Assembly (NCBI RefSeq): GCF_024498175.1
Contig: NZ_CP101823.1
Location: 2,170,001-2,234,000, forward strand
DNA from: Haloplanus salinarum
GTDB lineage: Archaea > Halobacteriota > Halobacteria > Halobacteriales > Haloferacaceae
Direction: 5' to 3'
Length of the DNA stretch: 64,000 bases
How positions within the stretch are numbered: the first letter of the stretch is position 1; every line of letters starts with the position of its first letter. The notes below the pieces were generated by a model that was given only the letters and a program-made list of their open reading frames with translations, was not told where the DNA came from and searched no databases. Shown here in pieces: positions 55,994 to 63,521 of the stretch. The translations under genes and the position numbers were made by a program.

Positions 55994-57445
55994 TCACATG
56001 AAATCCGAGAGGCCCGCCTGCCCCTCGTCGTCGTCCGCTTCTCCGTCGGGTTCACCGTTCCCATCGTCGCCCTCGGGGTCGGCCGTCGACTCCGGCGCCG
56101 CCGTCGCGGCCGCGTCGTCGCCGTCGTCGATCCCCTCGTCTCGGGTGCCGCCGAAGGCTCCGGAGTGTTCCTCCATCTCGGACGCCCGACGTTCGTTCGC
56201 GTCCTCGACGATGCCGGCGACCTTGTTCGTCGTCTCGCCGCTCCCGGTCACGAACGACACCGCCTCGGCGTCGAAGTCGTAGTACGCCGCCATCGCCACC
56301 GTCAGGTCGCGGGGTTTGCAGTGGTGGGTCATCGCCGCGAGGAAGGGCAACACCTCGCGACGGGCGGTCGCCATGCTGAAGCCGCCGCGTTCGGCGACCG
56401 TACGGACCACCTCGTCGGCCGTCGAGTCCGAGGAGGGCCAGAACTGCGGGCGCGAGAAGCGCGTCCACCCGCCTTTCGACCCGTCGCGGGCGGCCGCTAC
56501 CCCGCCGGCGAGGGCGTCGGTCGCGTACCGCCAGTAGCCGTACTCCTGGCTGGCGCGTACCCGTCCCAACCAGCGGTCGGCGTCCGCGAGAGCGTCGTAC
56601 GCCCGGGCGAGTTCCGCCCCCTCGTACACCTTCGGGGCGTTCTCGGTGACCCACTTCGTCAGATCGTCTGGCGTCTCGTCGACGCGGTACGCGGACTGGA
56701 TCGCCTCCTCGGCGGACTCCTCTTTCAACACCGCATCGAGGAAGGGGAAGACGTCCAACCCCCGGTCGCGGTCACCCGTCGCCACGTCGTCGACGGTCAA
56801 CCGCCGGCCGTCCTCGGCGGCGGCCTGGAGGTCGTTGACCGCCGATCGGAGGTCGCCGTCGTTGACCTCCGCGATCCGGTCGAGGGCGTCGGCCTCGAAC
56901 TCGATTCCCTCCCGTCGGCAGATATCGCGGAGGACGGGGACGATGGACCGGGCGGACACGTCGCGGAACTCGATCTCCCGGCAGGCGTTGCGGAGCCCCC
57001 GACTCATGTCGTAGTAGTCGTTGGCGATCAGGACGATGGGCTGGTCGGCGTCCTTCACGACGCGGGTGAGGGCACTGGCGCCCCCGCGGTCGTAGTTGCC
57101 GTGGATGTTATCCGCCTCGTCGAGGATCACGAGCTGACGGCCGCCGCCGTCGCCGCCCGTCGCGCCGACGAGGGTCGTGTTCTTGGACGCCCGTCCCGCG
57201 AACCGTTCGATCACGTCGGCGGTCCGCTGGTCCGAGGCATTGAGTTCGACCGTCTCCCAGCCCATGTCCGACGCCAGCGCGTGCGCGGCGGACGTCTTGC
57301 CCACGCCCGGACTCCCGTGGACGACGACCGCCTCCCGGTGGTCGTCCCACGCCTCCGCCCACTCGGCCAGCGCGTCACGGGCCTTGTCGTTCCCCCGGAC
57401 GGCCGACAGCGTCGACGGCCGGTACTTCTCCGTCCAGTCTACCAT
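55994..57445 (-). CDS. rfcL: Replication factor C large subunit
   Basis: The protein has 483 residues. The N-terminus MVDWTEKYRPSTLSAVRGN is family-typical; Walker A is GSPGVGKTS and Walker B LVILDEADN; archaeal RfcL lid and collar domains follow. An acidic disordered tail ends QAGLSDFM, a PIP-like box for the PCNA clamp. It loads PCNA during DNA replication. The start at 57445 is only 51 bp from the divergent first gene of the integrated element, so the element abuts the rfcL promoter. Confidence 0.95.
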   Translation of the reverse strand: MVDWTEKYRPSTLSAVRGNDKARDALAEWAEAWDDHREAVVVHGSPGVGKTSAAHALASDMGWETVELNASDQRTADVIERFAGRASKNTTLVGATGGDGGGRQLVILDEADNIHGNYDRGGASALTRVVKDADQPIVLIANDYYDMSRGLRNACREIEFRDVSARSIVPVLRDICRREGIEFEADALDRIAEVNDGDLRSAVNDLQAAAEDGRRLTVDDVATGDRDRGLDVFPFLDAVLKEESAEEAIQSAYRVDETPDDLTKWVTENAPKVYEGAELARAYDALADADRWLGRVRASQEYGYWRYATDALAGGVAAARDGSKGGWTRFSRPQFWPSSDSTADEVVRTVAERGGFSMATARREVLPFLAAMTHHCKPRDLTVAMAAYYDFDAEAVSFVTGSGETTNKVAGIVEDANERRASEMEEHSGAFGGTRDEGIDDGDDAAATAAPESTADPEGDDGNGEPDGEADDDEGQAGLSDFM

Positions 57446-57496
57446 ACTTTGTGTATATCCTGTGTATTGAAGTGTCCTCGGTTCCTTAGTTGACTC

Positions 57497-57870: not shown

Positions 57871-58881
57871 GTGGCAACAGCTGAAGAAGAGGACATTCTG
57901 GGTCGAATTAACGAGGACACGATTGACGATGTCGTTGGTGCTGACATCATTCGCAAGCATCTAAAACGTGTGAAAGCTCGGAAGTCATCCTCCACTCTCC
58001 GGAACCGAAGGGTTGCCATTCGCCAGTTCGCCGACTTCTGCGAACGCGAGGAGGTATCCTTCGATGATATCTCCAAGGAACATATTAATGACTGGATTGA
58101 CGGATTCCTCTTGGACGAGTATGCACCACGCAGTATCCGAACGAAGGTCTATGACCTCTCCAGCGTCTACCAGTACTTAGAAGGGCGAGGTATTGTCGAC
58201 GCAAACCCGATTGAAGATGTTGACCTGAAAGACTTCTCTGGAACCAAGATTGACGAATACACGGATGTTCGCTATCTTGAGATTGAAGAGTACGAGGCGA
58301 TGGTAGAAGCTTGTTCAAAACTACGCAATCAGCTCCTGATTGAGCTTCTATGGGAGACAGGATGTCGTGCCAGCGAGGCGGTGTCGATACAGATATCCGA
58401 TATCGACCGCGAAGAACGGTCAATTAATATTGAGACGGCGAAGCAGGGTGCCCTTTCGGCGTCGAAAAGCCGCACAGTCTACTATTCACGTTCATTCAGT
58501 CGAACACTTCAGAAGTGGCTGGACCGTGGTGGGCGCTCGAAGTATCTCGGGGCCAGTTCTGATGGAGACGGCTATCTCCTGGTGACGAAGGAAGCCCCAT
58601 CGATGGCTGTGAACCGCGTAAATGAAATCGTCCATAAACTCGCTTCAGAGGATTATGCTGACATTCAACAGGTGCTCTACACGGATGCGTCCGGTACAGA
58701 ACGGAATCGAGTGACTGCTCACGCATTTCGGCATAGCTACGCTGTCCACCGTGTGAAGAACGGTATGCCACTTGTGTACCTGCAAGACCTCTTGGGCCAC
58801 GAAGAAATCGAAGTCACGAGGAAGTACCTGCAATTCCGTGATGACGATGTCGCGGAAGCAGAGCGTAAGTACCGACCGTAG
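57871..58881 (+). CDS. Tyrosine recombinase (integrase)
   Basis: The protein has 336 residues. A SAM-like N-terminal core-binding domain (about 25-110) precedes the catalytic domain with all residues present: Arg166 in TGCRASEA, Lys199 in SASKSR, His284-x2-Arg287 in AHAFRHSY, His310 in LLGHEEIE and Tyr319 in TRKYLQF. It is a phage/provirus-type XerC/D-like integrase, intact and probably active. The start is GTG at 57871. Lower GC than the rfcL side marks the start of a separate element. Confidence 0.9.
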   Translation: MATAEEEDILGRINEDTIDDVVGADIIRKHLKRVKARKSSSTLRNRRVAIRQFADFCEREEVSFDDISKEHINDWIDGFLLDEYAPRSIRTKVYDLSSVYQYLEGRGIVDANPIEDVDLKDFSGTKIDEYTDVRYLEIEEYEAMVEACSKLRNQLLIELLWETGCRASEAVSIQISDIDREERSINIETAKQGALSASKSRTVYYSRSFSRTLQKWLDRGGRSKYLGASSDGDGYLLVTKEAPSMAVNRVNEIVHKLASEDYADIQQVLYTDASGTERNRVTAHAFRHSYAVHRVKNGMPLVYLQDLLGHEEIEVTRKYLQFRDDDVAEAERKYRP

Positions 58882-59020: not shown

Positions 59021-59602
59021 TCAACAGCTTTCTTTCCACTTTTTCCGAAGGTTGGATAATATCTCTCTCACCCACTCTCGACGATTCATATCTATCGCGC
59101 CCCACTCCTTCCGTTCGGTACATAGAATGGCATGAATTTCATGCACTATCCATACCAACCATGTGATACCCAGGAAAAGTGCGAAGATATCTGTAACTTG
59201 TTTTGTGAATGGGCGTGAGAGAAGAATCAGATACATTCCCAAGAACAACACTAATCCGGCATATCGTACGGAAGTTAATTGAAAATTGAAAAATATCATC
59301 CTCAGGCCCGCAATAACTCTCGTTGCAAACGCTAACATCACAAAAATCGATGCAACGACCATAGCGGTCGCACTGAGTGCCTCGTATTGGGTTAACTCGC
59401 CACCCTCTATTACGAACTCAATAATAACGAGGATTAGGGCAAACAATGCAATGGCTTGCCCAGCCATCGTATCCACAATATCCATAGCATCCTCATCGCT
59501 CGGCGATTCAGTAAGCAGAGTGGGGTTAGTGTATAACTTGATAAGTTGTGCGACAAACGGAATGATAATCAGAACGGTCGCCAATTCACCTGGCTCAATC
59601 AT
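59021..59602 (-). CDS. Membrane protein of the integrated element
   Basis: The protein has 193 residues and five hydrophobic helices (about 8-22, 45-66, 78-100, 110-130, 138-158), with a basic cytoplasmic C-terminus (RREWVREILSNLRKKWKESC). AT-rich codon use differs from the GC-rich neighbours and supports foreign origin. No family recognised. Possibly superinfection exclusion or another membrane function of a provirus; speculation. Confidence 0.65.
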   Translation of the reverse strand: MIEPGELATVLIIIPFVAQLIKLYTNPTLLTESPSDEDAMDIVDTMAGQAIALFALILVIIEFVIEGGELTQYEALSATAMVVASIFVMLAFATRVIAGLRMIFFNFQLTSVRYAGLVLFLGMYLILLSRPFTKQVTDIFALFLGITWLVWIVHEIHAILCTERKEWGAIDMNRREWVREILSNLRKKWKESC

Positions 59603-59649: not shown

Positions 59650-59760
59650 TCAATCCCGATGTTGCAGACAATACTTTCGGCCTCTTAATACAGACCTGTC
59701 GCATCCATCTGCTGAACAGACGCTTTGGAGCTCTTCTGTATCTTCGTCACTATCGGTCAT
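59650..59760 (-). CDS. Micro zinc-knuckle protein C (36 aa)
   Basis: It starts MTDSDEDTEELQ and the rest is a C-x4-C-x9-C-x2-H knuckle: CSADGCDRSVLRGRKYCLQH. It is the third of three overlapping micro-ORFs. Its ATG lies inside the end of micro-ORF B (11-bp overlap). The pattern resembles the GC-D...RGRKYC-x2-H zinc fingers found attached to phage HNH proteins, here alone. Confidence 0.7.
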   Translation of the reverse strand: MTDSDEDTEELQSVCSADGCDRSVLRGRKYCLQHRD

Positions 59761-59875
59761 CTGAGCTCCTGCTCATTCGGTGTCTCCGACAGTATTTGCG
59801 CCCTCTCGAAGTTGTGGCATCACAACCTGAGTGAGCACAGACATCCTGTAAGTACCGCTTTTCATCATCCGACAT
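59750..59875 (-). CDS. Micro zinc-knuckle protein B (41 aa)
   Basis: An acidic start (MSDDEKRYLQDV) leads to the knuckle CAHSGCDATTSRGRKYCRRH, then a basic and serine tail (RMSRSSDDR). Paralogous to A and C: identical Cys/His spacing and RGRKYC core. It follows A by 9 bp. Confidence 0.7.
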   Translation of the reverse strand: MSDDEKRYLQDVCAHSGCDATTSRGRKYCRRHRMSRSSDDR

Positions 59876-59884
59876 CGAAGCTGG

Positions 59885-59992
59885 TCAGGGTTTATGCTTG
59901 GTACAGTACTTTCGGCCCCTGGCTGTAGTCCGGTCGCATCCTGGTTCTGAGCAAGTAGCTTGTCGTTCGATGATATCATCATCGTCTGGCAT
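59885..59992 (-). CDS. Micro zinc-knuckle protein A (35 aa)
   Basis: MPDDDDIIERQAT then the knuckle CSEPGCDRTTARGRKYCTKH and a short KP tail. It is the first of the three-gene array, with a TATA-like ttttaac about 28 bp upstream. All three share C-x4-C-x9-C-x2-H. A longer ORF in another frame (59773-59982) crosses A and B but is a shadow. Confidence 0.7.
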   Translation of the reverse strand: MPDDDDIIERQATCSEPGCDRTTARGRKYCTKHKP

Positions 59993-60152: not shown

Positions 60153-60992
60153 ATGAGTGGCGACCACGACCAGTTCCGGTTCGGGGAGGACGGCGAACTC
60201 GAAGAACCGGACGACGACGAAGACGAGGAGGAACAGACGAACGACCTCGGCGAGGAGATGCCGTGGTATGAGACGAAAGGCGGATTCCGGCGCGACGTGA
60301 TGTCGAGCCTGTTTCAGAAGGCGGTGCGCCGGTCAGACGATGAGACTGCGGCGTTCGCAGCGTGGGAACTCGTCCGCTCCGGACCCAAGTATGAGACCCA
60401 TTACTGGAACCGCGCCGTTCTCGCTTGCATCGAGGATTTGGTGGCGGGCAACGAGGCGACTGAACACGTCCTCCGATACGAGGACCTCGCCAAGAACAGA
60501 TACGCCGATAACGACTGGGCACGACGACTCTGCGCGATTGCCGCCGCGATGGTCTGCGCCCGTGCCCGGTCGGGCCGCGAGACCACTCACGCCAACGGTT
60601 ACTTCAGCAACACGATGGTCGACCGAGCGCGAGCACAGCAGGACGACGACCACGAGCCTCTGTACGCGCCGCCGGTCACGGACGAAGAACTCGAAGGAGA
60701 CGGCAAGTACGGCTTCATCGCCAAGGACAAGCACACCTACCCAGGGTCGGGGATGGGACGCGGCTGGGCACACTTCCGGATTCACGGGGCACGGTGTAGC
60801 GACGAAACAGAACTCGGACAGAAGTGGTGGCGACGTGTGCTCCGCTACGATGCGCCAGAATACGCCTATAGGGAGCCGGAGGTCACGTTCACCGAGGAAG
60901 AAATCGAGCACGCCGTCGAGCCGACTCCCGAGGACGAACCGTGGAGGTGCGACCTCGCCGAAGACGCGAACCTCAACGAGTTCGACGAGTAA
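60153..60992 (+). CDS. Stand-alone MgsA-C-like protein
   Basis: The protein has 279 residues. An acidic N-terminus (1-35) is followed by a helical domain: FRRDVMSSLFQKAVRRSDDE, TAAFAAWELVRSG, YWNRAVLACIEDL, and DWARRLCAIAAAMVCARAR. The repeated pair of helices and the conserved sense of 'small units processed' match the C-terminal domain of MgsA/RarA AAA+ ATPases, which oligomerises at stalled replication forks. The AAA+ part is missing. Stand-alone versions are seen in viruses and plasmids. A KHTYPGSGMGRGWAHFRIHG motif near the C-terminus is unusual. Confidence 0.6.
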   Translation: MSGDHDQFRFGEDGELEEPDDDEDEEEQTNDLGEEMPWYETKGGFRRDVMSSLFQKAVRRSDDETAAFAAWELVRSGPKYETHYWNRAVLACIEDLVAGNEATEHVLRYEDLAKNRYADNDWARRLCAIAAAMVCARARSGRETTHANGYFSNTMVDRARAQQDDDHEPLYAPPVTDEELEGDGKYGFIAKDKHTYPGSGMGRGWAHFRIHGARCSDETELGQKWWRRVLRYDAPEYAYREPEVTFTEEEIEHAVEPTPEDEPWRCDLAEDANLNEFDE

Positions 60993-61195: not shown

Positions 61196-61636
61196 ATGTC
61201 CACTCCAAGAAAACCAGCCGGTGGGCCCGCCGATGTAACCGCTGACATAGCCGAACGAGCGTGGGAAGGGACCGTTGCCAGCGCCGTCTTGGTCCCCGCG
61301 ATGCAACTTTTTCTCTTAGAGTTCGCCAACGCACTCCAGCCTATCGCAGGTAACGCGCTGGCCGTCGACCCGATGACGATGCTGTCTACGGCTATCGTTG
61401 TCCTGGGCGTGTTGCCGGTCGCCTCAACGCTCGTTTCGACAGCCGTCGCATATGCGGCCGCTGGCTGGCCGGGGGTGGTGTTCTACTACCTTATGTCGAC
61501 GGGAGCCTCGATGGTGCTCGGTGCAGAGCTACTTGGGGCTATCATCTTCATGACCGGCGTCGTGCTGTTCCTGGTCGTTGCCGCGCTCAAGATGCGAGGT
61601 AGTCAGCGACGACGGCGTCCACGACGCCCGATGTAG
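61196..61636 (+). CDS. Membrane protein with basic tail
   Basis: The protein has 146 residues and three or four hydrophobic helices (about 28-50, 58-82, 88-108, 112-132), ending in the strongly basic KMRGSQRRRRPRRPM. It is small, probably a provirus structural or membrane protein, but no family is recognised. Moderate GC. Confidence 0.6.
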   Translation: MSTPRKPAGGPADVTADIAERAWEGTVASAVLVPAMQLFLLEFANALQPIAGNALAVDPMTMLSTAIVVLGVLPVASTLVSTAVAYAAAGWPGVVFYYLMSTGASMVLGAELLGAIIFMTGVVLFLVVAALKMRGSQRRRRPRRPM

Positions 61637-61790: not shown

Positions 61791-63521
61791 ATGGCAACTG
61801 ACTCGACGACCAGCGATAGCTACGGCGAACAGCACGCAGTCAAACAGATGGACGTGAATCTCGTGAAGGCCGCCGAGCGCCTCATATTCGACCAAGCTGG
61901 GTCGCTTGAGGATGGTATCCGCGAAGGCGTCCAGAACGGCGTCGACGCCCCCGGTAGCTCGCACGTCCAGGTCGCGGTCCAGCCCAGCCAACAGCGCACC
62001 ATCATCTGGGACGACGGCGAAGGCATGGGCCTCAGCAACGACGAAGTCGAGACGTTCCTCACCGAGTTGTTCGAATCGACGAAAGACGACGCTGACGCCA
62101 GCATCGGCCAGTTCGGGATTGGCTTCGCGCAGATGATGGCGAAGGCGCAGGTGACAGTCTACACGCGCGCGTACATCACTGAGTTCGACGCCAGCGAACG
62201 CACCGCGTGGAGTGACTCGCCTCTCGACTACCGCCTGTGGGGGCCGGACGAGGTCGCTCAACAGACAGACGGCATGAACCCACGCTCCGAGTTCGACGGC
62301 GAGCCGCGCTTCGACGGCTTCGACGGGTTCTGGGTCGAACTCGACCACTACGACGACCAGGTGCCCGACAGCGAGGACCTCGGAGACTGGGACGACGTGA
62401 CCGACGAGCTACGTTCTCGATTCAAGTTCATCGCCGCCGCGACCGGGGTGCGCGTCTACCTGAACGGCGAGGACATCTCGCAACCACCAGGCGAGCGGTA
62501 CGGCAACTACCAAACCTACGAGGACGAGCAGGTCTACATCGCGCTCAAGCACTCGTCGTACGGGAACGTCTCGGTCTACAGCAACGGCATCCACGTCGAG
62601 AATCAGTACCGTGACGGTGTGAAGGGCTACGTCGTCACCAAGGCGAATCTCAGTCTCAATATGAGCAGAGACGAGGTGAAATCGGACTGTCCCGTTTGGG
62701 CGGAGGTCGAGCCCAAAGTAGCGGACCTGACGAAGCAGGTACTACAGAACACGTCTGACAGCAGGCTCAGCGAATCAGGCCGGACCGCTATCGCCCGGCT
62801 AGTACGGGAGGGTCACGACGACATGGGCGACCGAGAAGTGTTCGAGACCGCCAACGGCGAGACCGTCTCACTGGAGGACATCGCTGACCACGACTCGCTG
62901 GCGTTCGCCCCGCAGGGCCACCGCCGGGCCGACAAGATGCTCGAACGCGGATTCATGGTGCTCCGCGAACCCGGCGATGGTGGCGACGACCCCAACCGCG
63001 AACTGCAAGAGGCCCTCAGCGAGAACGTCGTTGACGACACGCCCGACGAGCGGGCCATCGACCAGTGGGCGTCGGCCCACGGGGTGAGCGGGGGCTACGA
63101 GACACTCGACGACCCGACCGACTGGAACGCGACGATGGCCGTCGTCGAAACGCTCAACGACCAGATAGCCGCCGAAATCGAGCAAGACCGACGGGACGTA
63201 CGGTTCGGTCAGGACGAATCGCGGAAGGGCTGGACGGACGGGGGTTCAGAAATCGTCGTCACCGAGACCGCCTGGCACGGCGACTACACCGTAGGTCGTA
63301 TCCTGAACATCTGGCGGCATCTGTGTCACGAGTACGCTCACGAGGAGAATACTGAGGGTGTGCAGGAAGCCCCCCACGGTGATGGCTTCGCCCGGCGATT
63401 CCGCCGATACATCGACGCAACTGAGCACGTCGCCACAGACCTCATTGACGAGGTTCAGCGCAACGGCAAGAAGCAGACGATGGCCGAGCACGGACACCCG
63501 CTGAGCCAGTACCGGGGCTGA
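61791..63521 (+). CDS. GHKL ATPase fused to a HEYAH metallopeptidase-like domain
   Basis: The protein has 576 residues. The N-terminal GHKL/Hsp90-like ATPase has Glu45-x3-Asn49 in EGVQNGVDA, the Asp loop DDGEGM (74-79) and the glycine lid GQFGIGFA (106-113); a transducer-like middle region follows (about 200-300, VYLNGEDISQPPGERYGNYQ). The C-terminal part has HEYAH (513-517) and a further His 12 residues on in PHGDGF, an HExxH-x11-H zinc metallopeptidase pattern. GHKL ATPases with attached effectors occur in MORC-like and anti-phage systems, so a defence or replication role in the element is suspected. Confidence 0.75.
   Translation: MATDSTTSDSYGEQHAVKQMDVNLVKAAERLIFDQAGSLEDGIREGVQNGVDAPGSSHVQVAVQPSQQRTIIWDDGEGMGLSNDEVETFLTELFESTKDDADASIGQFGIGFAQMMAKAQVTVYTRAYITEFDASERTAWSDSPLDYRLWGPDEVAQQTDGMNPRSEFDGEPRFDGFDGFWVELDHYDDQVPDSEDLGDWDDVTDELRSRFKFIAAATGVRVYLNGEDISQPPGERYGNYQTYEDEQVYIALKHSSYGNVSVYSNGIHVENQYRDGVKGYVVTKANLSLNMSRDEVKSDCPVWAEVEPKVADLTKQVLQNTSDSRLSESGRTAIARLVREGHDDMGDREVFETANGETVSLEDIADHDSLAFAPQGHRRADKMLERGFMVLREPGDGGDDPNRELQEALSENVVDDTPDERAIDQWASAHGVSGGYETLDDPTDWNATMAVVETLNDQIAAEIEQDRRDVRFGQDESRKGWTDGGSEIVVTETAWHGDYTVGRILNIWRHLCHEYAHEENTEGVQEAPHGDGFARRFRRYIDATEHVATDLIDEVQRNGKKQTMAEHGHPLSQYRG

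Follow-up and report, generated by a model that had tools for sequence, protein, structure and literature searches.

Haloarchaea possess stand-alone zinc proteins of fewer than 70 amino acids, the C(P)XCG micro-proteins. A known example of a small zinc-finger gene that stands just upstream of a gene for a membrane protein and points the same way is Brz, the regulator of bop in Halobacterium salinarum (PMC2253796). Fingers with a similar C-x4-C ... C-x2-H spacing are found in the HNH-associated finger of PHROG 144, in the Pfam families Zf_WRKY19, CxC6 and EsV_1_7_cys, and inside the HmaC/DUF499-type haloarchaeal defence ATPases, where the finger is a small part of an approx. 1100-aa ATPase of a known defence family. 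The rhomboid proteases (PF01694; RhoII of H. volcanii, PMC9263693) are a further point of comparison, since their domain is fused to a distant relative of the membrane protein described below.

Here we describe a locus of Haloplanus salinarum in which three micro zinc-knuckle genes, named A, B and C, precede a membrane-protein gene. The whole stretch of DNA analysed, 64,000 nucleotides long (NZ_CP101823.1, positions 2,170,001 to 2,234,000), is called the window. The three products (35, 41 and 36 aa) lie within the size range of the C(P)XCG micro-proteins. However, they combine C-x4-C with C-x2-H instead of carrying two C(P)XCG motifs and, unlike those proteins, are linked with a membrane gene and with mobile elements. 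C(P)XCG motifs do occur in the zinc-ribbon arrays of two distant loci (G034 and G384). Brz is likened to the present cassette by its arrangement, but it is a single gene and a chromosomal regulator of bacteriorhodopsin. The PF01694 rhomboid domain is absent from the window membrane protein.

No model of Pfam, PHROGs, NCBIfam or PADLOC scored above its cut-off for the knuckles or the membrane protein, and PADLOC 2.0.0 gave no match for the membrane protein or three viral knuckles. The matches to PHROG 144, Zf_WRKY19, CxC6 and EsV_1_7_cys were below the curated cut-off or weak (E 0.002-0.14). A preliminary description of this DNA had related the knuckles to those of phage HNH and homing proteins. 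A weak likeness to PHROG 144 was indeed detected (E 0.004-0.03), but it was confined to the finger region; an HNH nuclease domain is absent and the window proteins end after the finger. The internal finger of the HmaC/DUF499-type ATPases was found by the knuckle profile (E 2e-6 to 4e-5), and we dropped these proteins as relatives of the system as the resemblance is at the level of the finger alone. HmaC/DUF499-like proteins of approx. 1100 aa with a related finger were seen at six loci (L077, L078, L079, L080, L084, L095). Term searches of the main virus-genome papers turned up no reference to the cassette. The gene system of array and membrane protein is new and previously undescribed.

Three micro zinc-knuckle genes in the window

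The features of the locus are collected in Table 1. The coordinates confirmed three ORFs of the described lengths in two frames of the minus strand, with A and B in a common frame and C in another, separated by 9 bp (A to B) and overlapping by 11 bp (B to C). A TTG start would extend gene A from 35 to 39 codons. Each product consists of an acidic leader followed by C-x4-C-x10-C-x2-H with the core GCD-x4-RGRKYC; the earlier reading of the motif was correct in leader, outer pairs and core, but the middle spacing is ten residues and not nine. The core pattern had exactly three matches in the window, with none expected from 100 dinucleotide shuffles, and a looser knuckle pattern found only the sites of A, B and C in the whole 3.45-Mb genome. 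A simple DNA repeat was rejected as the origin of the array, as only one repeat pair of 73% was present. The four zinc ligands are invariant in 22 aligned knuckle copies, and the knuckle core was predicted with a pLDDT of approx. 80; a fold search of the model against the PDB gave no significant match. The micro-proteins are predicted to bind zinc. Nucleic-acid binding is one plausible role, others being possible.

Table 1. Features at and around the knuckle array. Positions are counted from the first letter of the window.
Feature	Position	Strand	Remarks
Left element end	57423..57467	.	RfcL start; 23-bp and 19-bp motifs repeated near approx. 81.95 kb, read by eye
Tyrosine recombinase (integrase)	57871..58881	+	Integrase of the element; context, not part of the module
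Membrane-protein gene	59021..59602	-	193 aa, with 4-5 predicted transmembrane helices; the array's obligate partner
Micro zinc-knuckle gene C	59650..59760	-	36 aa; probably class p5; copy adjoining the membrane gene
Micro zinc-knuckle gene B	59750..59875	-	41 aa; position class p2
Micro zinc-knuckle gene A	59885..59992	-	35 aa; first in array; probably position class p1
TATA-like TTTTAA	60016..60021	-	23 bp before the ATG of A; read from the upstream sequence
Perfect 8+5+8 palindrome TTCAAATCNNNNNGATTTGAA	60051..60071	.	Lies between array and divergent gene (60153)

The TATA-like motif would fit a leaderless transcript starting at A. The palindrome occurs only once in the genome, with one mismatch allowed, and is a possible operator. 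The gene at 60153-60992 (+) is divergent from the cassette across it. An operator common to the regions upstream of seven arrays was looked for and none was found. This bears on a rather unlikely explanation, local regulation or stress adaptation, by which the zinc proteins would be small transcription regulators of a membrane gene with a housekeeping role. Small zinc proteins of haloarchaea can regulate an adjoining gene, as Brz does for bop (PMC2253796), and the palindrome upstream of A agrees with such a role; the missing common operator and a sparse, mobile distribution (5/391 genomes) speak against it.

The array members are position-specific paralogues under selection

Copies that hold the same position in different elements were compared in 13 pairs. 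Their pN/pS was 0.23 in frame, compared with 1.04 and 1.21 in the shifted frames; as these pairs have a shared history, the direction is secure but the precise value is not. The changes in the same pairs fell mostly on third codon positions (120, against 56 and 38 at the others). Copies A, B and C of the window are mutually too diverged for such a ratio, their synonymous sites being saturated. The micro-genes are thus under frame-specific purifying selection, which upholds the earlier argument that a core conserved despite diverged DNA indicates coding. Loss of the frames in related elements had been named beforehand as the observation that would speak against translation; the frames are conserved. 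The three micro-ORFs look like genuine genes. That they are chance ORFs in a non-coding stretch has their shortness in its favour and is practically negligible in view of this selection, the zero expectation for the core pattern and the fact that the genes are conserved across viruses, plasmids and chromosomes.

Copies at the same position were 76% identical between elements (HJTV-2, plasmid, G179), compared with 48% for copies at different positions within one of these elements. A recent homogenising tandem duplication was therefore rejected for the virus, plasmid and G179 arrays, as the positions are older than the elements. By its leader, B clearly belongs to class p2 (MSDDEKRYLQ against MSDDEKRMLQ; none of 20000 shuffles was as good), while A is probably class p1 (leader shuffle P 0.005) and C probably p5 (P 0.036). 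The RGRKYC core, on the other hand, is common to all three window copies, and nearly all copies elsewhere have GRE[HR]x[YF]C. Thus leaders follow position and cores follow element. The cores may co-evolve with one common partner per element, gene conversion being the alternative. The second copy in G140 has a p2 leader with a p5 tail and p5 downstream sequence, and this array looks like a p2/p5 recombinant. The array members are old, position-specific and non-redundant paralogues.

The array and a membrane-protein gene form one module

The membrane gene starts 47 bp downstream of C. In Haloplanus ruber (G010) five knuckle ORFs in a row run into a gene for a 194-aa membrane protein, with 43% identity to that of the window (E 5e-50). 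A membrane profile built from these two proteins was searched against 391 genomes of the class and gave five strong hits (G000, G010, G131, G140 and G179), and a separate knuckle profile gave strong hits in exactly the same five genomes, with 3, 5, 3, 2 and 5 knuckle copies respectively. Hits in G002, G035 and G024 did not recur in the profile search and were dropped as chance. In a scan of genome contigs with the two-row membrane profile H. ruber was the only match. In IMG/VR the HJTV-2 genome was the only one, and the phylum sample yielded nothing outside the genus. In the first array copy of G179 (p1; L033:6173-6286 (-)) a Tyr replaces the Cys that is the first zinc ligand, and this copy is perhaps on its way to loss.

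The model of the membrane protein has 4-5 long helices (mean pLDDT 71; also from hydropathy), and its charged tail suggests a cytosolic carboxy end. Many invariant residues lie within NP...PS...M..VD, Q-x-T..RY.G and W..HE...W..R..W. Fold searches of the model against the PDB and against viral structures gave no significant match.

The knuckle form was found on the chromosomes of five haloarchaea, on two related plasmids and in four tailed viruses, and at every locus found one to five micro zinc-finger genes directly precede one membrane-protein family. If the cassette is defined as at least one zinc-finger ORF of approx. 35-75 codons directly upstream of this family, the window contains one. 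The knuckle array and the membrane gene are thus one mobile accessory module of haloarchaea. The preliminary description had taken the genes for tandem, free-standing and apparently new versions; the novelty stands, as no known model matches them, but the genes are never free-standing, always lying ahead of the membrane protein as cargo of mobile elements.

Viruses, plasmids and chromosomes carry the cassette

In the window the cassette lies in an integrated element of approx. 24.5 kb (approx. 57439 to approx. 82.0 kb), which is inserted at the start of the RfcL gene and runs beyond the window. In related genomes of the genus, which have empty sites, the RfcL start is followed by sequence that is found approx. 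24.5 kb further on here, and near-direct repeats are present at both element ends. The order in the element is a small gene, the tyrosine recombinase and then the cassette. Beyond the window it encodes a 1422-aa type IIG/DrmMI-like enzyme (4e-97) and a PDC-M57B candidate (6e-77). The same element contains a gene at 61791-63521 (+) for a 576-aa protein with an HSP90/MutL-type ATPase domain (HATPase_c_3, 1e-8) and a weak PADLOC match to TmtA over the same part. Two further genes of this element, at 60153-60992 (+) and 61196-61636 (+), gave no Pfam family above cut-off.

The tailed viruses HJTV-2, HRTV-24, HRTV-21 and HRTV-13 (Haloferacalesvirus; gp52-gp57 in HJTV-2) have the gene order of the window cassette, with five knuckles and the membrane protein between the integrase and a winged-helix gene. 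They differ from the window in copy number (five against three) and in the core (GREHxYC against RGRKYC). All six genes are annotated as hypothetical, the five knuckles as separate proteins. The earlier expectation that automatic annotation would miss the three genes therefore fails for their counterparts in the viruses, and it agrees with the plasmids, where the PLSDB gene tables, which are incomplete, list 0/5 copies. HRTV-15 represents the empty site, with only 1 bp between integrase and winged-helix gene. The slot of HJTV-3 and HRTV-9 holds a single gene that matches the PADLOC candidate PDC-S05 (8e-18); this PLD-like candidate lies at L047:1894-2754 in HJTV-3 and at L049:1894-2724 in HRTV-9. 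Between HJTV-2 and HRTV-21 the cassette is 96.0% identical, compared with 90.4% for the integrase and 83.3% for the other flank, so the cassette has probably been exchanged as a unit.

As accessory cargo of tailed viruses with several non-redundant small acidic proteins, the cassette might serve anti-defence or host takeover, the micro zinc proteins being viral inhibitors of host defence or transcription proteins, with several variants for several targets and assistance from the membrane protein. We consider this unlikely: the micro-genes are always tied to the membrane protein, and on plasmids and chromosomes the cassette has survived intact where the viral integrase has decayed. On plasmids of Natronomonas marina and Halorarius halobius, which carry the five-copy cassette, and in G140 and G179, carboxy-end pieces of the same viral integrase, broken by stops or frame changes, lie directly before the array, yet the membrane gene is still open, as is almost the whole array. 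This suggests that the cassette arrived with such a virus and was then kept for its own sake.

Retention after integrase decay, together with the mobile carriers and the compact two-part operon with overlapping genes, would also suit an addiction (toxin-antitoxin) system, in which zinc proteins neutralise a toxic membrane protein and stabilise the carrier. We regard this as quite unlikely, as it would be unusual for one toxin to have two to five diverged neutralisers, and no toxin or antitoxin model matches. The cassette adjoins the integrase in the viruses and in the window and could be its helper. An excisionase role was rejected in view of the cassette-free integrases of sister viruses and of the cassette persisting beside a broken integrase. 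The same observations, and the failure to detect a virus-type integrase near the cassette in H. ruber or G131, make any helper of this kind, including a recombination factor, very improbable.

Zinc-ribbon arrays precede distant membrane relatives

Weak relatives of the membrane protein were detected in G034, G126 and G384 (E 1e-5 to 1e-7; hhalign probability 81 and 91), and the G034 protein as query added a plasmid of Natrinema thermotolerans and G107; this distant homology is modest. All five loci have tiny zinc-finger ORFs immediately upstream, with zinc ribbons in place of knuckles (two, two double ribbons, four, two and one, in the order given). In the control, none of 299 other long ORFs from seven sequences had a tiny zinc-finger neighbour. 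The ribbon genes thus occupy the same place before the membrane relatives: the finger type changes and the architecture stays. Across finger types, the tiny gene next to the membrane gene has a similar leader (ALQKTC, ALRQWTC, ALRQWKC, ARQWKC). In G384, where four tiny zinc-ribbon genes come first, the membrane protein (L107:3115-4341 (-)) is fused to a rhomboid domain (1.4e-9). Close to the G126 locus lies a gene for a DrmC-like PLD protein, and close to that of G107 one for an HmaB-like methylase; a TIR (ThsB/PDC-S66-like) gene neighbours the knuckle cassette on the plasmids. No defence annotation was found near the Natrinema plasmid locus.

Discussion

Our preferred explanation, to which we would give somewhat less than an even chance, is a two-part module in which zinc adaptors act on the membrane protein and the carrier thereby keeps out competing viruses or elements. 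The micro-proteins would be adaptors of the cytosol, folded around zinc, each with an acidic leader specific to its position, and their common finger would dock on conserved loops of the membrane protein. When a competing virus or element enters, they would switch this protein, which might then block DNA entry or disturb the membrane. That the role is exclusion or defence is the least certain part of this scheme, and we infer it from the genomic context. This conflict context favours defence or exclusion over the other explanations, though not strongly: the viral slot alternates with a defence candidate, the plasmid cassette has a TIR neighbour, the element of the window carries restriction genes, and DrmC-like and HmaB-like proteins are encoded near two of the ribbon loci. 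Against it stand the absence of any PADLOC model match, the modest distant homology and the Natrinema locus; moreover, the mobile-element context would also suit anti-defence, addiction or plain regulation. We would be more doubtful about the broader idea of a new class of archaeal and viral membrane-based immunity or exclusion, in which non-redundant micro zinc fingers, knuckle or ribbon, would be interchangeable sensors or adaptors serving one membrane effector that is rhomboid-fused in one lineage.

Three unannotated micro-ORFs have become a defined and testable gene system that crosses viruses, plasmids and chromosomes, and they provide a clear case of 35-codon genes held as distinct paralogues by selection. 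In haloarchaeal viruses the slot after the integrase can be empty, hold a defence candidate or hold the cassette. The four carrier viruses exist as isolates whose hosts are named, and HRTV-15 provides a natural control for the empty site, which makes the role of the cassette testable. That the finger type is swapped while the membrane partner remains constant raises the question of what the fingers recognise.
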